A stretch of DNA of 64,000 nucleotides from Acidimicrobiales bacterium (GTDB lineage Bacteria > Actinomycetota > Acidimicrobiia > Acidimicrobiales > CADCSY01): contig JAUJNB010000011.1 in the NCBI GenBank assembly GCA_030446545.1, forward strand, positions 1 through 64,000. The letters run 5' to 3'. The notes beneath the pieces are model-generated. The model saw only the letters and a program-made list of their open reading frames with translations. It did not search any database and was not told where the DNA came from. This document shows, piece after piece, positions 17,850 to 32,440 of the stretch. The number at the start of each line of letters is the position of its first letter. The stretch's first letter is position 1. The position numbers and the translations under genes are program-made.

Positions 17850-18781
17850 TCAGACCAGGGCGGGAGTGCGGCTCTGGGGTTCCTCGCCGGCGGCCTGGCG
17901 GCGCTCGCTCACCCGTCGCCCGGCCTTGCCCACCCGGGCGATGTAGCGCAGCACCCGCGTGCGGGCCTCCTCGGCCTCAGGGGTGAGGCCCTCCACCGAT
18001 TCCAGGCCCCAGTGCTCGAGCACGACGGGACGCAGGATCCGCTCGTAGTGGTTGGCGAAGTCGTAGATGCCGGCGTTGGCGATGGCCCGGGCGTGGCTGG
18101 CGAAGTTCGGGATGCCCGTGCCCGGCATCTCGAAGCCCGCACCTGGCGGTCGACGGCCAGGACCACCGCCGAGGGATCGATCTCGAGCACCGCCGACGTG
18201 GCGTCCCGGTAGAAGACGTGGTGGAGGTTCTCGTCGCCGGCCACGCGCGCCATGATCTCCCGCCCCCGCCGGTCGGCCAGGAGGCGACCGGTGTTGCCGT
18301 GGGAGATGCGGGTGGCCAACTCCTGGAGGCTGACGTAGACCAGGCCGTCGACCACGGTCTCGGGCTCGGGCACCTCACCCCGGCTCACCTGGGCCATCCG
18401 CCCCCGCTCCAGGGCGACGGGGTCGACGCTGCGGGTGACGGTCAGGTAGTCACGGATGACGATGGCGTGGCGACCCTCCTCGGCGGTCCAGCGCTTCGAC
18501 CACGCCCCCCACGCCTCGTCGATGCCGAACAGGCCGTTGATGGTGCGGAAGTAGTGCGGGAGGTTGTCCTCGGTGAGGAGGTTGACGAACAGGGCGCTGC
18601 GTACGGCCCCGTCCATGGGCGCCTCCGACGGGTCCCACTCTTCACCCGCCTCGAAGTCTCGTCCCAGGCTCCAGGGCACCAGCTCGTGGGGGAACCACTC
18701 CCGGGCGTTGTCCAGGTGACGTTCCAGCAGCTGCTCGGCGACGGGCGAGAGCTCGTGGAGCAGGTCGGTGTCTCGATCCAT
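17850..18781 (-). pseudogene. Acyl-ACP desaturase family gene with a single-base frameshift
   Basis: Family members are soluble diiron enzymes that put double bonds into acyl-ACP. From ATG 18781 one frame carries TEDN, AEEGRHAIV, LQELATR and DENLHHVFY, giving the four Glu and two His diiron ligands. Around 18133 the frame is lost at GTGCGGGCTTCGAGATG. The family sequence resumes one frame over with FEMPGTGIPNFA and runs to 17850. Restoring one base before TTCGAG would rejoin it to about 310 aa. Either a recent mutation or a sequencing error is possible. A 20-bp dyad overlaps its promoter. Confidence 0.8.
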
Positions 18782-23933: not shown

Positions 23934-25229
23934 ATGCCCTCCCCCCACCGTCGCCTGCGGGCGGCCGACGTCGAGTCCTTCATCCGGACCCGGTGCTTCG
24001 CCCCGGCCGAGCACGGTCGCATCGGCGTCGAGCTCGAGCGCCTGGTGGTTTCCGCCGGGGGACGGCGCCACGCCGGTGGCGCGAGGGCCGACCACACCGC
24101 GGTGGCCCGGGCCGTGGCCGCGGTGGGCCCCCTTCCCGGCGGCAGCCGGGTGACCTTCGAGCCCGGCGGGCAGGTCGAGGTCAGCTCCCCGCCCCACCGA
24201 GGCCCGGACCGGGCCTGTGCGGTCACCAGCGCCGACCTGGCGGTCGTCGACCCGGCCGTCCGGCGCCTGGGCCTCGAACTGGTCGGGGCCGGCCTCCATC
24301 CGCTGGGTGAGGGGCGACAAGTGGTCGACCACCCCCGCTATCGGGCCATGGCCGCCTACTTCGACGCCCAGGGTGGATGTGGACGGACGATGATGTGCAG
24401 CACGGCGTCGCTCCAGGTGAACGTCGACATCGGCGACGAAGGGTCCCAGGCCCGACGCTGGCGCCTGGCCCACCGCTTGGGCCCGGTCCTGTTGGGGGCC
24501 TTCGCCAACTCGCCCCTCACCGCCGGCGTGGCCAACGGGTCGTGCTCGGGTCGGGCCGGGGTCTGGGCCGGCATCGACGCCAGCCGGACGGCGTCGGCCG
24601 ACTCCGGGTCCGGGTCCGGGGCCGGGGAAGTGGAGGATCCGGCCCGGGCCTGGGCCCGCTACACGCTGGCCGCCCGGGTCATGATGCTGAGGGTGTCCGA
24701 CAACGAGATGGTCCCCGTGGTCAGGCCCCTGCCTTTCGCCCGTTGGATCGACGAGGGCCACGAGTTGGGCTTTCCCACGCTCGAGGACCTGGAGTACCAC
24801 CTGAGCACGCTGTTCCCCCCGGTGCGGGCCCGCGGCTGGTTGGAGCTGCGCATGATCGACTCCTTGCCCGATCCGTGGTGGCAGGTGGCGGTGGCGGTGT
24901 GCGCAGCCTTGTTCGACGACGCCGAAGCGGCCGAGGAGGCCGCCCGGGCCACCGTCCCCACGGCCGGGCTGTGGACCGAAGCCGCCCGTTTCGGGCTGGC
25001 CCACCCGGCGCTGGGCGCAGCCGCACGCGCCTGCTTCGCCAGCGCCCTCGACGCCCTTCCCCGGTTGGGTGCCGGTGCCGACCTGGTCTCCCATGTGGCC
25101 GCCTTCGTCGACCGTTTCGTCGATCGGGGGCGTTGTCCGGCCGACGACCTGCTCGACGCCGCCGTCGTCGGACGCGCCGGGCCGGTCGAGCTCCGCACGA
25201 CCGTCGCCGCCACCGCCGAGGCTCGGTGA
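23934..25229 (+). CDS. egtA: Glutamate-cysteine ligase EgtA
   Basis: Makes gamma-glutamylcysteine, the sulfur donor for the ergothioneine pathway. The 431 aa protein has the EgtA/GCS2-like pattern: GVELERLVV near residue 28, then GGQVEVSSPPH, CGRTMMCSTASLQVNVDIG, and RARGWLELRMID. The first gene of a cluster in the order egtA, egtB, egtC, egtD. Its TGA overlaps the GTG start of egtB (GTGA). Confidence 0.93.
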   Translation: MPSPHRRLRAADVESFIRTRCFAPAEHGRIGVELERLVVSAGGRRHAGGARADHTAVARAVAAVGPLPGGSRVTFEPGGQVEVSSPPHRGPDRACAVTSADLAVVDPAVRRLGLELVGAGLHPLGEGRQVVDHPRYRAMAAYFDAQGGCGRTMMCSTASLQVNVDIGDEGSQARRWRLAHRLGPVLLGAFANSPLTAGVANGSCSGRAGVWAGIDASRTASADSGSGSGAGEVEDPARAWARYTLAARVMMLRVSDNEMVPVVRPLPFARWIDEGHELGFPTLEDLEYHLSTLFPPVRARGWLELRMIDSLPDPWWQVAVAVCAALFDDAEAAEEAARATVPTAGLWTEAARFGLAHPALGAAARACFASALDALPRLGAGADLVSHVAAFVDRFVDRGRCPADDLLDAAVVGRAGPVELRTTVAATAEAR

Positions 25230-26578
25230 ACCCGGGCGTGGCCGAGGCTGTGGGTGTGACCCGACCGCACCGGCTCGACCCGGCCCGGCTGCGGGCCCAT
25301 GTCGCCGCCGAGCTCGACGCCGCCCGTCGTCGATCGCTCGGCCTGCTGGAACCGGTGTCCGACGCCGACCTGGTGCGCCAACACTCGCCCCTGATGTCGC
25401 CGCTGTCCTGGGACCTGGCCCACGTCGCCAACTTCGAGGACCTGTGGCTGGTGCGGGCGCTCGGCGGAGCGGCGGTGGGGCCTGGCTACGACCACCTCTA
25501 CGACGCCTTTGCCAACCCCCGGGCCGACCGTCCCTCGCTGCCCCTCCTCGACCCGGCCGGCTCCCGCCGCTACCTGCACGACGTCCGTGGGCGAGCGCTC
25601 GACCTCCTCGACCGGGCCCCGCTCGACCCGGGCCACCAGCTCCTCGATGCCGGCTTCGTCTACGGGATGGTCCTGCAACACGAGCACCAGCACGACGAGA
25701 CCATGCTGGCCACCCTCCAGCTCATGGACGCCCCCGGCTATCGGCCGGCCGCTCCGTCACCGCCGCCCCGGGCGTCTGGACCCACGGTCGACCAGGAGGT
25801 CCTGGTCGACGGGGGCCCCTTCGTCATGGGCACCGACACCTCCGCCTGGGCCTACGACAACGAACGCCCCGCCCATCTGGTCGACCTCGCCCCCTTCCGC
25901 ATCGACGTGCTGCCCACCACCAACGCCGGCTACCTGGAGTTCGTGGAGGCCGGCGGCTACTCCGAGGCCCGGTGGTGGAGCGAGGCGGGGTGGGCATGGC
26001 GCAGAGAGGCCGGCGTTGCCCACCCCGGGAACTGGCGACCAGAGGGCCAGGGTGCCTGGTCCCGGGACCGCTTCGGTTGGGTGGAGGACCTGCCACCCGA
26101 CGAGCCGGTGCAGCACGTGTGCTGGTACGAGGCCGACGCCTACGCCCGCTGGCGGGGCCGGCGCCTGCCCACCGAAGCCGAGTGGGAGAAGGCCGCGTCG
26201 TGGGACCCGCAGCCGCCCACCAAGCGGCGCTACCCCTGGGGGGACCAGGAGGCCACGCCCGCCCGGGCCAACCTGGGCCAGGACCGCTTCGGACCCGTTC
26301 CCGTGGGCTCGCTTCCCGACGGGGCCGGTCCCTCGGGCTGTCAACACCTGGTGGGCGACGTCTGGGAGTGGACCTCGTCGGACTTCCGGCCCTATCCCGG
26401 GTTCCGGGCCTTCCCCTATCCGGAGTACTCCGAGGTCTTCTGGGGACAGGGCTACAAAGTGCTGCGGGGCGGGTCCTGGGCCACCCACCCCTCGGCGGTG
26501 CGCACCACGTTCCGCAACTGGGACCACCCCATCCGCCGACAGATCTTCGCCGGGTTGCGCTGCGCCCGCGACGCCTAG
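25226..26578 (+). CDS. egtB: Hercynine oxygenase (sulfoxide synthase) EgtB
   Basis: A non-heme iron enzyme that joins hercynine and gamma-glutamylcysteine with O2 to a sulfoxide. Its N-terminal DinB-like domain carries LAHVANFEDLW and LQHEHQHDET, which supply the three iron-binding His. The C-terminal formylglycine-generating-like domain has GGPFVMGT, RLPTEAEWEKAA, GDVWEWTSS and LRGGSW. GTG 25226 is coupled to egtA (450 aa); GTG 25256 would give a more usual N-terminus. Confidence 0.94.
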   Translation: MNPGVAEAVGVTRPHRLDPARLRAHVAAELDAARRRSLGLLEPVSDADLVRQHSPLMSPLSWDLAHVANFEDLWLVRALGGAAVGPGYDHLYDAFANPRADRPSLPLLDPAGSRRYLHDVRGRALDLLDRAPLDPGHQLLDAGFVYGMVLQHEHQHDETMLATLQLMDAPGYRPAAPSPPPRASGPTVDQEVLVDGGPFVMGTDTSAWAYDNERPAHLVDLAPFRIDVLPTTNAGYLEFVEAGGYSEARWWSEAGWAWRREAGVAHPGNWRPEGQGAWSRDRFGWVEDLPPDEPVQHVCWYEADAYARWRGRRLPTEAEWEKAASWDPQPPTKRRYPWGDQEATPARANLGQDRFGPVPVGSLPDGAGPSGCQHLVGDVWEWTSSDFRPYPGFRAFPYPEYSEVFWGQGYKVLRGGSWATHPSAVRTTFRNWDHPIRRQIFAGLRCARDA

Positions 26579-26591
26579 CCGGCCCGCCACC

Positions 26592-27425
26592 GTGTGCCGC
26601 CTCCTCGCCTACCTCGGCCCCCCCGTTCCCCTGGAGGCGGTGGTGTCGGCTCCGGAGCACTCGCTCGTGCGCCAGTCCTACGCCCCTCGCCACCAGCGGC
26701 ACGGGCGGGTCAACGCCGACGGCTTCGGGGTGGGCTGGTACGACCGGGCGGTGCGCGAGGCACCGGCTCGCTACCGCTCCGACCGACCCATCTGGTCCGA
26801 CCGGTCCCTGGCCAGCATGGCCGGGTTGGTGTGCTCGGGGGCGGTGCTGGCCGCCGTCCGCGACGCCACCCCGCCGGCGGCGGTGGAGGAGAGCGGCTCC
26901 CCGCCCTTCGCCTCCGGGCCCTGGCTGTTCGCCCACAACGGGGCGGTGGCCGGCTTCACCGGCGGCGCCGGCGTGGCCCTGCGCCAACTGATCTCGCCCA
27001 CCCGCCTGGCCGGCATCGAGGGGGCGAGCGACAGCGAGGTCGTCTTCGCCCTGGTGCTGGATGCCCTCGACGCCGGCGCCGGCGCCGGCGACGCCGTCGC
27101 CCGGGCCGTGACTGCGGTCGAGTCCGTGGCCTCCGCCCGCCTCAACCTGGTCCTCACCGACGGCAGGGACGTGGTGGCCAGCGCCTGGGGTGACACCCTC
27201 TTCCTGCTCGACGACCCCTGGTGGGGCCGACCACCGGGCCGGGCCACGGTGGTGGCGTCCGAACCCTACGACGACGACCCCCGCTGGCTCGCCGTCCCCG
27301 ACCGCTCGATCGTGGGCGTCGGTGCCGAGGGCGTCACCGTGGCGCCTCTGGCCCCGACCGCATCCCCGACCAGACAGGAGCCCCCCACCATGGCCGAGAA
27401 CCTCACCACCGGGGAGACGGCATGA
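26592..27425 (+). CDS. egtC: Gamma-glutamyl hydrolase EgtC
   Basis: Removes glutamate from the gamma-glutamyl-cysteinyl-hercynine sulfoxide. It is a class-II glutamine amidotransferase fold. GTG 26592 puts Cys at position 2 (M-C-R-L-L-A-Y), the N-terminal nucleophile, which fixes the start. Other family segments are [10 protein letters not shown] and [11 protein letters not shown]. 277 aa, 13 bp after egtB, and its stop overlaps the egtD ATG (ATGA). The last 25 residues look disordered. Confidence 0.93.
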
Positions 27426-28411
27426 CCGCCACGGGTACGGATGTGTGCGTCGACGTCCACCTCGACGACGACGACCTCGGCGCCGCCCTGCGCCACGACG
27501 CCCGGCGGGGCCTCGGTTCCCGGCCCAAGTGGCTGCCGCCCAAGTGGTTCTACGACGACCGCGGCTCCGCCCTCTTCGACGACATCACCCGCCTGCCCGA
27601 GTACTACCCCACCCGGTGCGAGACGGAGATCCTGGAGCACCGGGCCGGCGAGATCGCCGCCGCCTGCGGGGCCGACACGTTGGTCGAACTGGGCTCGGGG
27701 ACCTCGCACAAGACCCGGCTCCTGCTCGACGCCCTGGCCGCCGCAGGATCCCTCACCCGGGTCGTGCCCTTCGACGTGAGCGAGGCCACGTTGCGCCGTG
27801 CCGCCGACGCCCTGGCCGCCTCGTACCCCGGGGTGGAGGTCCACGCCGTGGTGGGCGACTTCGAGCGCCATCTCCACCTCCTGCCCCGCGGTGGTCGACG
27901 TCTGGTGGCGTTCCTCGGAGGGACGATCGGCAACCTCGAGCCGGCGCCCCGAGCGGCCTTCCTGGCCGACGTGGCCGGCGACCTGGCCCCCGGCGACGGC
28001 CTGCTCCTCGGCACCGATCTGGTCAAGGAGCCCGGTCGCCTGGTGGCCGCCTACGACGACGCCACCGGGGTCACGGCCGAGTTCAACGTCAACGTGCTCC
28101 GGGTCCTCAACCGGGAGCTGGGGGCCGATTTCGAGCCCCGGGCCTTCCGCCACGTCGCCCACTGGGACCCCCACCAGGAGCGCATCGAGATGCGGCTGCG
28201 TTCGCTGGCGTCCCAGACGGTGACCCTGCCGGCGATCGACCTCGGCGTGGCCTTCGCCGAGGGCGAGGAACTGCGCACCGAGGTGAGCGCCAAGTTCCGC
28301 CGGGAAGGGGTGGAGGCCGAGTTGGCTGCGGCCGGCCTGCGCCTGGCCCGGTGGTGGACCGACGCCGCCGGAGATTTCGCCCTGTCGCTGTCCTTTCCGG
28401 CCGAGGCCTAG
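27422..28411 (+). CDS. egtD: L-histidine N(alpha)-methyltransferase EgtD
   Basis: Trimethylates histidine to hercynine with SAM, the committed step. The 329 aa protein shows [18 protein letters not shown] near residue 35, the SAM loop [16 protein letters not shown], and [11 protein letters not shown], characteristic of EgtD. It closes the cluster. No EgtE-like PLP lyase gene follows, so the final C-S cleavage must be encoded elsewhere or done by another enzyme. Confidence 0.95.
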
Positions 28412-29136: not shown

Positions 29137-30429
29137 CTACATGAAGTTGCGGGTGTGGAGGGCCGACAGCGCTCCTGCTTCGCCGGGGGAGAAGCCCAGA
29201 CGGGTCAGGCGGCGGCGGCGGCCGTCGGCCATCTCCGCCTCCAGGGCCTGGACCCGGGTGAAGCCCTCGGCCACGGCCCGGGGGGTGAAGCTCCCGGCGG
29301 CCAGCACCACCAGGGCGTCCACCACGTCGGCGTTGAGGCCGACGGTGCTGGCCAGAGCGTCGTGGCGCCGGTGGATGGCGGCAGCCAGTCGGGCCCGCTG
29401 CCCGGGATCGCTGGTTACGACCGCGCCCAGATGGGCCATGCCAAAGGCGACGTGGCGGGCCTCGTCGGCCAGGGCCAGGCGGGCCACGGCCGCCGTCACC
29501 GGATCGGGCGCATGGCGCTCGATGAACGACAGCAGGGCCAAGAAGGTGCCTTCGCCCAGCACCGAGAGCAGGAAGTGGGCCAGGGCGAAGTCGGGCTCCT
29601 CCAACAGGGTCAGCAGCGATGCCTGACCGCCGGCGCTGGAGCGGCCCAGCTCTGCGCCCTTCAGCGTGGCCCGCCGGGTGAACACCTCCACGTGCCGGGC
29701 CTCGTCGGCGATCTGGACGGCCAGCACCTGCACCACCTCACGGAAGTGGGGATGGACCCGGCCGAGGAAGCGGGCGGGCACGGCCAGGGCCGCCTGCTCG
29801 TTCTCCACCAGGTAGGTCATGACCTGGATCACGGCCGCCTCCACCTCGGCCGGGAGGTCGACGGGTGTCTCCCAGGGCACGGCGGTGGCCGGGTCCCACT
29901 GGGCGGCGGCAGCCTGGCGGTAGTAACGGGGAGCGTCGTCGGTCCACACCATCGACCGGTGGTCGAGGGGGAAGGGGAAGGCCGGGCTGCCGGCCTCGAC
30001 CAGCGCCCCCCGGGCGGCGACCCCCCAGGTGGATGCCGCCGTCTCGGCCACGGCGCCCGGACGGACGGGGTCGGCCGCGCCGGTGCGCTGCGCGCCCCTC
30101 CAGCGATCGTCGGCGGCCGTGCCCCGCACGATCCACGCCTCGACCCGGTCACCGTTGGTCACGGCCGCTGCGGGCGGGGGGCCCGGCTCGTCGCCGCTGA
30201 TCGACCCGGGGGCAGGGTGGTCGACCAGGGTGTGGCCCTGGTTGCGGCACCAGGCTCGGAGGTGGACGGCCAGTTCGGGGGCCCGGCCCGAGACGGCCAG
30301 GCGCTCACCCGGGGCCAGGCCGGCCAGGGCCCGCTCGACCAGCAGGTGGCCGCCCCGGTCGAGCCCCAGGTCTTCCAAGTCGAGCACGGCGGGGGCGGGT
30401 GCCGCGCCACCACGGCCCGGGGTGGTCAC
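29137..30429 (-). CDS. TusA-like / diiron ferritin-like fusion protein
   Basis: A 430 aa protein. Residues about 10-70 resemble a TusA fold (LAGLAPGERLAVSG, AWCRNQGHTLV) but lack the CPxP sulfur-transfer cysteine. From about residue 160 it is a ferritin-like four-helix diiron domain with a complete ligand set: Glu in LVENEQAAL, ExxH in DEARHVEVF, Glu in GEGTFLALL, and ExxH in DEARHVAFG. A diiron oxygenase or N-oxygenase type reaction is plausible. GTG 30429 overlaps the PhnD-like stop (GTGA). Last gene of an uncharacterised three-gene operon. Confidence 0.75.
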   Translation of the reverse strand: MTTPGRGGAAPAPAVLDLEDLGLDRGGHLLVERALAGLAPGERLAVSGRAPELAVHLRAWCRNQGHTLVDHPAPGSISGDEPGPPPAAAVTNGDRVEAWIVRGTAADDRWRGAQRTGAADPVRPGAVAETAASTWGVAARGALVEAGSPAFPFPLDHRSMVWTDDAPRYYRQAAAAQWDPATAVPWETPVDLPAEVEAAVIQVMTYLVENEQAALAVPARFLGRVHPHFREVVQVLAVQIADEARHVEVFTRRATLKGAELGRSSAGGQASLLTLLEEPDFALAHFLLSVLGEGTFLALLSFIERHAPDPVTAAVARLALADEARHVAFGMAHLGAVVTSDPGQRARLAAAIHRRHDALASTVGLNADVVDALVVLAAGSFTPRAVAEGFTRVQALEAEMADGRRRRLTRLGFSPGEAGALSALHTRNFM

Positions 30430-31280
30430 GGCAGCCGGACCAGGCCGCCGGCGTCGTCGTAGACGCCCTGCTCCTCCACGGCGAGGGCCAGGGCCCCGTA
30501 GCCGCTGGTCCGACCCGGCCGCCACGCCTTGAGGCCCTCCAGATCGAGCAGCGGGCGCACCTCGGGGTCGTCGTAGGACATCGACAGCAACAACCCCGTG
30601 AATCGCTCCACCAGCGGGCCGGGCGCAGAGGCGCCCACCGTGAAGTTGCAGTGGTCGTAGGTAGGGGTTTGGGTGAGGATCCGGGTCGACCCCGGGGCCA
30701 GCGTGCCCTCGTGGGAGAACAGCAGGTGGTTGCCGTCGATCATGCAGGCGGCGTCGACCCTCCCGTCGAGGAGGGCCCGGGCCGCCTCCCGCTCCCCGCC
30801 GACGTGGTCGCCGTGCTTGCCCACACCGATCTCGTGGCCGACCACGTCGAAGTCGACACCGGCGGCCAGGCCCATGCTGCGCAGATGCGACAACGGGATC
30901 AGCGTGGCCTGGGGCGAGTCGACCGCACCCACTCCGACCCGCCGTCCCCGCAGGTCCTCGACCTGGGTCACCGGTCCGTCGCTGCGCACCACCACGACCG
31001 AGGTCAGATCGCAGTCGGTGTCGCGCATGGCCACGGCCCGCACCGCCCCACCCCCCGAGCGACTCAGCCGCTCGGCCCGGACCCAGGCCAGCGGTGAGTT
31101 CCAGGCCACGTCCAGCTGTCCCGCCACCAGCGCCTCCACCAGGGCGTCGTAGTTGGAGTACAGCACGTAGTCGAAGCCCAGCCCCTTGCCCGCGAACCAG
31201 TCCTTGAACCCCTCCCAGATGGTGACCACCTTCGGGTCGTAGGCCACCGCCCCCATCACCAGCACCCCGTCCGTCGCCAT
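30426..31280 (-). CDS. Cytosolic PhnD-like substrate-binding-fold protein
   Basis: A 284 aa protein with the PhnD/SsuA/transferrin-type binding fold: VAYDPKVVTIWEGFKDWF, then VLYSNYDALVEALVAGQLD, DLRGRRVGVGAVDSPQ and VDAACMIDGNHL. Unlike ABC-transporter binding proteins it has no signal peptide or lipobox, and no permease or ATPase gene is near. It is therefore probably a cytosolic enzyme or ligand sensor, as is true of some THI5 and Mqn proteins with this fold. Its ATG shares one base with the upstream stop (TGATG). Confidence 0.78.
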   Translation of the reverse strand: MATDGVLVMGAVAYDPKVVTIWEGFKDWFAGKGLGFDYVLYSNYDALVEALVAGQLDVAWNSPLAWVRAERLSRSGGGAVRAVAMRDTDCDLTSVVVVRSDGPVTQVEDLRGRRVGVGAVDSPQATLIPLSHLRSMGLAAGVDFDVVGHEIGVGKHGDHVGGEREAARALLDGRVDAACMIDGNHLLFSHEGTLAPGSTRILTQTPTYDHCNFTVGASAPGPLVERFTGLLLSMSYDDPEVRPLLDLEGLKAWRPGRTSGYGALALAVEEQGVYDDAGGLVRLP

Positions 31281-32440
31281 CAGCTGGGCTCCTCGAACAG
31301 CGGCAGGCCACACGTGATGCGTCCGATGAAGTCGTAGAGGATGTCGGTGGTGGGCGCCATCACCGTGGCCGCCCGGGCGTCCCGGAAGTGGCGTTCCACC
31401 CCCACCTCCTTGCGGAAGGCGGCGCCCCCGCAGACGCGCATGGCCAGGTCGGCCACCTCGGTGGCGCTCTCCCCGGCGGCCGCCTTGACCTCCAGCACCC
31501 GCAGCATGACGTCGTCCCTCCCGCCCTCCAGGGAGTCCAGGCTGTCGAGGAGCAACGTGCGGGCCATGTCGGTGCGGATGCGCATGCGGGCCACGTAGGC
31601 CCGCACCGTGGGCGAGGCGGCCAGTGACTGGTCGAGGTGGGCCAGGCGGGTGCCGGCCACATGGGCCGCCGCCTTGGTGGTGACGGCGTCCATGGTGCCC
31701 ACCGAGAAGGCGGCGTTCATGAGCTGGAACGAGGGCAGCACCACCATCATCATCAGGTCGAACCCCCCCCCGTCGGGGCCGAGCATGGCGTCGGCCGGGA
31801 CCACGAGGCCCTCGGCGGTCATGGGGCTGGAGCGGTTGCCCCGCAGCCCGAGGCCGTCGAAGGGGGCACCCACCGACAGGCCCGGCGTGTCGGCCGGCAC
31901 CAGCCACAGGGTGCTCATGCCATCGGCGGCCATCGGCCGGCTCGACCAGACGTAGCTGTCGGCTTCCCCCGCCGAGGTGACCCAGCTCTTCCGGGCGTCG
32001 AGGCGGACCTGACCACCGTCGGAGCCGTCCTCGGGGGAGGCCGTGCTCATGGGCGCCCAGAAGTGGCTGCGCGAGCCGGCCTCCGACAGGGCCAGCGCCA
32101 GCAGATGGCGACCGGCGGCCACCTCCTCGCGGACCGCCCTCGAACCGTGAGCCTCGACGAGGGGGACGGCGCAGTAGTGCATCATCGCCACCATGGCGGT
32201 GGAGGCGCAGTGGTGGGCCAGCTCCTCGATCACGAGTGCGGCGGCCCGATGCCCCTCGCCCCGGCCGCCCACCTGAGGGGCACTGAGCAAGCCGAGGAGA
32301 CCGGCCCGGCCCAGGGCGTCGATGCCGGCACGGGGGAAGACGGCCTCGCGGTCGACCTCGGCGGCCGCGGGGGCCACCACCTCTTCGATCACCGACCTGA
32401 GGGTGTCGAGGGAGGAAAGGGCAGGGGCAGTGGGGGACAT
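31280..32440 (-). CDS. Acyl-CoA dehydrogenase-fold flavoprotein (non-canonical)
   Basis: A 386 aa protein with the acyl-CoA dehydrogenase fold: LALALSEAGSRSHFWAPM and KSWVTSAGEADSYVW for flavin binding, then CGGAAFRKEVGVERHFRDAR near the C-terminus. The usual EGTxEIQ segment is replaced by APTTDILYDFIGR, and no catalytic Glu is evident. This suggests a flavin-dependent monooxygenase or N-hydroxylase relative (DszC or nitrososynthase type) more than a beta-oxidation enzyme. First gene of the operon with PhnD-like and TusA/ferritin-like partners. Confidence 0.78.
   Translation of the reverse strand: MSPTAPALSSLDTLRSVIEEVVAPAAAEVDREAVFPRAGIDALGRAGLLGLLSAPQVGGRGEGHRAAALVIEELAHHCASTAMVAMMHYCAVPLVEAHGSRAVREEVAAGRHLLALALSEAGSRSHFWAPMSTASPEDGSDGGQVRLDARKSWVTSAGEADSYVWSSRPMAADGMSTLWLVPADTPGLSVGAPFDGLGLRGNRSSPMTAEGLVVPADAMLGPDGGGFDLMMMVVLPSFQLMNAAFSVGTMDAVTTKAAAHVAGTRLAHLDQSLAASPTVRAYVARMRIRTDMARTLLLDSLDSLEGGRDDVMLRVLEVKAAAGESATEVADLAMRVCGGAAFRKEVGVERHFRDARAATVMAPTTDILYDFIGRITCGLPLFEEPS

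Follow-up and report, generated by a model that had tools for sequence, protein, structure and literature searches.

What does a bacterium gain from a compact operon whose products are an acyl-CoA dehydrogenase (ACAD)-fold flavoprotein, a cytosolic protein of the PhnD fold and a fusion of a TusA-like domain to a diiron domain? The question is raised by three genes (genes 1 to 3, together the trio) found in a 64,000-nucleotide stretch of contig JAUJNB010000011.1 of an Acidimicrobiales bacterium (assembly GCA_030446545.1), hereafter the window. The original prediction, made from the letters of the window, proposed that the genes are co-expressed and serve an oxidative biosynthetic pathway. It left out the selenium context, which the window itself does not reveal. 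The comparison with other genomes described here indicates that the three-gene set is real, conserved and tied to selenium, and a role in selenium supply is the best, yet unproven, explanation for it.

Conservation and selenium gene neighbourhoods of the trio

Overlaps of 1 bp between genes 1 and 2 and of 4 bp between genes 2 and 3 had been claimed and are present in the window; the second is also found in the closest relative (L039). When 84,980 species genomes were scanned with gene 3, 99 loci were confirmed and the best 80 (47-77% identity) were analysed with gene calls made in this work, bearing in mind that they constitute non-independent samples. These 80 loci span Actinomycetota, Pseudomonadota, Myxococcota/Deltaproteobacteria, Acidobacteriota, Chloroflexota, Planctomycetota and Rokubacteria, that is, at least seven phyla. 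All three genes lie on one strand within 4.6 kb at 74 loci, and three of the six incomplete loci are truncated by contig ends. The gene order of the window is kept at 72 of the 80 loci and shuffled at two (L053 and L111); the retention of linkage despite a shuffled order argues for a working unit. Co-occurrence and order had been singled out as the check to run, and with linkage far above chance the predicted operon stands as a deeply conserved one. Full-length gene 3 was detected in just 7 of 199 Actinomycetota and 4 of 150 Burkholderiales sampled, groups in which SelB and SelD are common, and the trio is therefore an optional addition to selenium use. One genome (G043) carries genes 1 and 2 (67-68% identical) without gene 3, and SelD is present in it. 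A plasmid-borne trait was rejected, as gene 3 gave no match among 72,556 plasmids, and a role in anti-phage defence was discarded after a PADLOC search returned no match.

The link to selenium emerged from the genes around the trio. Clustering of the surrounding open reading frames, identified by NCBIfam, gave as commonest further neighbours SelB, SelA, formate dehydrogenase (FDH) subunits, FdhE, SelD, a PhnC/PhnE-type ATP-binding cassette (ABC) transporter and MnmH, and ARAGORN located a selenocysteine tRNA (tRNASec) at 16 of 60 scanned loci. In Variovorax (L061, L069, L076, L088, L089, L092 and L100) the trio is embedded in an island that reads fdhA-fdhB-fdhC-fdhE-selA-[trio]-selB-tRNASec-selD, with selD in reverse, and continues with a TIGR04553 binding protein (368 bits, cut-off 250), an ATPase, a permease and mnmH. 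Methyloversatilis (L047) shows selA-selB-tRNASec-[trio]-selD, and the Novimethylophilus locus combines the trio with a selenocysteine (Sec)-containing FDH (RVUHAPT), selD, mnmH, tRNASec, selB and selA. Sec-FDH and sel genes occupy the strand opposite the trio in L085, where the FDH carries Sec within RVUHAPT, and in L068. In Peristeroidobacter tRNASec lies about 28 bp upstream of gene 1, the Luteimonas trios (L107 and L111) also stand in a selenium gene context, and in L113 a selenate-type transporter sits between the trio and selB.

The fdh and fdhE genes that flank the trio in the Proteobacteria islands would suit a function in the maturation of molybdenum- or tungsten-dependent FDH, in which the trio assembles or protects the enzyme and the selenium genes adjoin solely since FDH contains selenocysteine. 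In agreement with this, genome G168 has genes resembling moeA and mobA, as well as a molybdopterin oxidoreductase, at 3-6 kb from the trio, and the third gene of the related mycobacterial set, which encodes a radical S-adenosylmethionine (radical-SAM) protein, matches in position the gene called moeX. However, selenium contexts also exist without close FDH genes. In L090 selD-selA diverges from tRNASec-trio, in Amycolatopsis (L052) tRNASec alone adjoins gene 3, and in an actinomycete with a diverged trio (G101, L147) selD-tRNASec-selA-selB-[trio] runs in one direction beside a Sec-containing GrdB. To these can be added a gene 3 that stands alone next to a SenA fragment (L071) and the Streptosporangiaceae locus described below. 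FDH maturation is thus considered an unlikely function of the trio. As a separate observation, the GrdB gene of L147 (16500-18880) is of the glycine/sarcosine/betaine-reductase type, has an in-frame TGA and is accompanied by a partner subunit.

In an uncultured member of Streptosporangiaceae (L080, 9202-12464) the trio is directly followed by senA-senB (SenA 474 bits, cut-off 420; SenB 344 bits, cut-off 300), and a convergent SelD-family gene is probably senC. This adjacency to a known selenometabolite cluster, together with the AurF/VlmB-like fold of the diiron domain, might indicate that the trio belongs to a pathway whose product, a small molecule or cofactor with selenium in it, is as yet undescribed, the selenophosphate made by SelD being the donor. 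The trio itself, however, has no selenium-incorporating enzyme of the SenB, SelA or MnmH type, and the gene sets that surround it otherwise represent known selenium pathways, so this possibility appears rather improbable. Taken together, several selenium arrangements that are independent of each other were found in two phyla and many orders, and the trio is very probably tied to selenium use.

Predicted properties of the three proteins

The positions of the genes and of the domains of gene 3 are collected in Table 1. The features that the original prediction had assigned to each protein were recovered by profile, alignment and structure-model comparisons.

Table 1. Genes and domains of the trio in the window
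Feature	Position	Strand	Description
Gene 1	31280..32440	minus	386 aa; ACAD-fold flavoprotein related to the Rv1679/FadE16 family; MAPT motif in place of the catalytic Glu
Gene 2	30426..31280	minus	284 aa; cytosolic protein with the PhnD/PtxB fold, related to the Rv1680 family
Gene 3	29137..30429	minus	430 aa; Cys-less TusA-like N-terminal domain and ferritin-like diiron domain
TusA-like domain of gene 3	30199..30387	minus	about residues 15-77; Pfam TusA E 9e-5; alpha/beta layout in the model
Ferritin-like diiron domain of gene 3	29140..29850	minus	about residues 194-430; ligands E209, E243, H246, E293, E323, H326

The N-terminal, middle and C-terminal ACAD domains of gene 1 score 64.5, 47.8 and 66.8 bits, each above the Pfam gathering threshold, and the nearest NCBIfam model, Rv1679/FadE16 (NF049984), matches over the full length with 385.8 bits, below its cut-off of 600. 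The canonical dehydrogenase motif is indeed missing: MAPTTDI aligns to YEGTSEI of the human short-chain acyl-CoA dehydrogenase (SCAD). A MAPT-type motif is found in all 34 aligned relatives, and no alternative helix-G Glu is present in the LPxF helix-G segment of these 34 proteins. Since the dehydrogenase base is lacking, an oxygenase-like or other flavin chemistry would be likelier than desaturation. In sequence, gene 1 is nearer to SCAD, with 136 bits, than to a DszC, with 58 bits.

Gene 2 begins with MATDGVLVMGAVAYDP and has no signal peptide. It matches Pfam Phosphonate-bd at 9e-32, and its AlphaFold model (mean predicted local distance difference test, pLDDT, 92.9) adopts the PhnD/PtxB fold, with PhnD (7s6g) as top Foldseek hit (E 3.5e-22). 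No transporter genes are found in the trio operon, the nearest ABC set within the window being located at 61.9-64 kb. The closest solute-binding protein (SBP)-like model, that of Rv1680 (NF049985), gives 238.9 bits, under the cut-off of 400. Four residues, H156, H159, H210 and C211, are invariant. The family has lost the SSTSG anion loop of TIGR04553 and has acquired GKHGD, a GGER insertion (GDHxGGER) that is absent from ABC binding proteins, and the H210-C211 (HC) pair, which is retained even in the mycobacterial relative. In a phylogenetic tree it forms, joined by the Rv1680 family, a clade apart from all sampled ABC binding proteins (support 100/100). Its separate clade, the lost loop and the gained HC pair therefore indicate that gene 2 does not encode an exported binding protein, and tree and loop likewise rule out that it is the retained binding protein of a selenate transporter. 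Rather, it looks like an SBP-fold enzyme or carrier with a putatively reactive cysteine.

The N-terminal match of gene 3 to TusA is weak, falls under the gathering score and starts at profile position 16. The position of the CPxP cysteine reads LGLDRGGHLL, and a later cysteine, C61, is not invariant. By contrast with this Cys-less domain, the diiron site is complete: all six ligands, four Glu and two His, are invariant across 40 relatives and are also retained in diverged trios, and the C-terminal tail HTRNFM is conserved. The AlphaFold model (pLDDT 91) resembles aldehyde-deformylating oxygenase (ADO) and the azoxy synthase VlmB. Judging from ligands and model, the gene 3 product is expected to bind a pair of irons and to use O2. 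Diiron relatives that lack the TusA domain occur in two genomes of the same order as the window. Downstream of the one in L156 (8300-10504) lie an uncharacterised small gene and ferredoxins, and the one in L157 lies by the small gene with no ferredoxins; the vicinity of ferredoxins suggests a hint of the electron donor and none of the substrate. As regards the original prediction of an oxidative biosynthetic pathway, its oxidative part agrees with the flavin fold and the diiron site of two of the proteins, and no support was obtained for biosynthesis, N- or S-oxygenation or cofactor synthesis.

A possible role in selenium supply

How could these proteins serve selenium metabolism? The gene 2 product would capture a selenium compound, perhaps one that enters through the TIGR04553-type ABC transporter found in some of the islands. 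The gene 1 flavoprotein and the gene 3 diiron enzyme would then oxidise this compound in one or two steps, either breaking a C-Se bond or changing the oxidation state of selenium, and the inorganic selenium released would, after reduction, be delivered to SelD for the formation of selenocysteine, selenouridine and selenoneine. The association of the trio with three end uses (Sec, a selenouridine island and selenoneine) points to a step upstream of SelD and not to a single product. The chances that the trio is a dedicated, O2-using cytosolic module that mobilises selenium and feeds SelD are put at somewhat under even, while the specific chemistry of oxidative C-Se cleavage is regarded as doubtful.

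The same selenium gene context would also be expected if the trio detoxified or repaired, with the flavin and diiron enzymes oxidising excess selenide, selenols or elemental selenium in O2-respiring cells and so keeping the selenium pool harmless. Both enzymes look oxidative, and many hosts are known aerobes, as judged by organism names. Nonetheless, the position between selA and selB suggests supply over defence, and the presence of a protein with a binding fold points to scavenging at low concentrations. The two points fall short of being decisive, and detoxification is held to be quite unlikely.

At the genome level, SelD scores above the cut-off in 45 of 50 trio genomes and SelB in 38, several others being just below it or partial. 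One or the other passes in 48, the two exceptions being the genome of L087 (SelB 223 bits, cut-off 242) and that of L118, the most diverged, with neither. SelD is also present in six Actinomycetota with diverged trios and in two further Burkholderiales. For bacteria at large, frequencies of 33.7% for SelD and 21.5% for Sec users have been reported (PMC5029168).

Several observations weigh against selenium supply as the function of the trio. Base rates in the groups concerned are high, with SelB passing its cut-off in 125 of the 199 Actinomycetota sampled and SelD doing so in 112 of the 150 Burkholderiales; presence and absence therefore add little there, and it is the neighbourhood evidence that carries the selenium case. 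The association could partly track the selenocysteine FDH. The gene 2 family branches on its own, and the selenate-type transporter protein is not its closest kin. In the window genome and at many diverse loci the trio has no selenium gene nearby, and a diverged gene 1-gene 2 pair exists in a Mycobacterium that lacks SelD, so that related genes can work without it; either selenium is not a requirement of the chemistry or the function has switched in that branch. These last two observations, together with the hydrogenase genes that flank the trio in Acidimicrobiia (L040, L042 and L044) and in L102, would fit a general function in sulfur or organic-acid metabolism, in which case the selenium genes would adjoin by chance or for indirect reasons. 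The several independent selenium arrangements across two phyla and many orders and the 48 of 50 genomes with SelD or SelB stand against such a function, which is deemed improbable. Two possible selenium features of L102 were rejected, as the large subunit of the supposed NiFeSe hydrogenase carries Cys and not Sec, and the TGA of its gene 1 is an ordinary stop at the C-terminus.

The genome of the window (71% complete) encodes the selenocysteine machinery elsewhere. The selA and selB genes lie side by side (L152) on a contig other than that of the trio, and selD (L151, G000:C4:184354-185277) is also on another contig. This SelD is itself a selenoprotein (HGAGUACK), and the organism therefore decodes UGA as Sec. 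Convergent with the trio, the window holds a complete ergothioneine operon, egtA-egtB-egtC-egtD (23934-28411, plus strand), and in G043 (L154) a distance of about 4 kb separates egtB/egtC from the pair of genes 1 and 2. Even with this second case an ergothioneine link is not general across the loci and stays unproven. The sole Rfam match of the window, to ASdes (TB sRNA), lies at 18411-18478 on the plus strand (57.5 bits, gathering 40), away from the trio, at which no known RNA element was thus found.

The importance of a selenium supply module lies in the gaps that it could fill. According to a 2026 review, prokaryotes have no known selenium transport system that is both specific and of high affinity, and neither the form of selenium that SelD uses in vivo nor the system delivering it has been completely elucidated (PMC13188914). 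A module that shares operons with selA, selB and selC is a direct candidate for this gap. It is tentatively proposed that the trio represents, for aerobic bacteria, the first enzyme system dedicated to acquiring selenium, one that would free selenium from an organic or oxyanion source for SelD as part of the missing in vivo donor route. If true, this could account for how O2-respiring bacteria make selenoproteins where selenium is present in traces, would bring a chemistry dependent on O2 into selenium metabolism, and would offer a starting point for the uncharacterised mycobacterial genes Rv1679-Rv1681.

Comparison with known systems

In accordance with the original prediction, no named system with this set of genes was found in family libraries, structures or open-licence literature, where the mycobacterial gene names appear just in lists, proteomics and biomarker papers. 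The studies devoted to selenium gene discovery name YedE, YedF, DUF3343, a LysR-like regulator and HP1/HP2, and the trio is not among them. YedF/SirA-like proteins and other SelD-linked genes do share with the trio a TusA/SirA-like protein in a selenium gene neighbourhood. However, YedF combines TusA and DsrE domains, and neither study describes an ACAD, PhnD-like or diiron partner (PMC2432076, PMC5322559).

Among binding proteins, the selenate-type TIGR04553 family, which occurs in some of the same islands, and the oxyanion-binding PhnD, PtxB, ArrX and AioX have their fold in common with gene 2, but gene 2 is cytosolic, forms its own clade, lacks the SSTSG loop and carries the GDHxGGER insertion and the HC pair. 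AurF, VlmB and ADO resemble gene 3 in the ferritin-like fold with four Glu and two His ligands, and of 40 members of the gene 3 family, 32 have a match to the AurF Pfam model (25.1 bits for the window protein, gathering 29.6). Unlike them, gene 3 has an extra TusA-like domain, and the TM-score is just about 0.4 on query length.

The nearest likeness is found in mycobacteria, where adjacent genes for an ACAD-fold protein, Rv1679 (FadE16), and a cytosolic PhnD-fold protein, Rv1680, are homologous to genes 1 and 2. They share the MAPT and HC motifs, respectively, with genes 1 and 2, and a third gene likewise stands beside them. In a Mycobacterium-type genome (G151; L153, 5697-8637) the pair is 47% and 41% identical to genes 1 and 2, and the three genes, by position, presumably correspond to Rv1679-Rv1680-Rv1681 (MoeX). 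This set differs from the trio in that a radical-SAM gene replaces the diiron gene and the genome is without SelD; genes 1 and 2, moreover, score below the NF049984 and NF049985 cut-offs. A TusA-like domain in the mycobacterial radical-SAM protein was considered on the basis of a similar residue pattern and dismissed after an insignificant profile comparison (E 0.03, probability 1.7%). At the level of chemistry, the DszC/DszB desulfurisation pair unites an ACAD-fold oxygenase with an SBP-fold enzyme that cleaves C-S bonds, and by analogy it may offer a model for C-Se cleavage by the trio.

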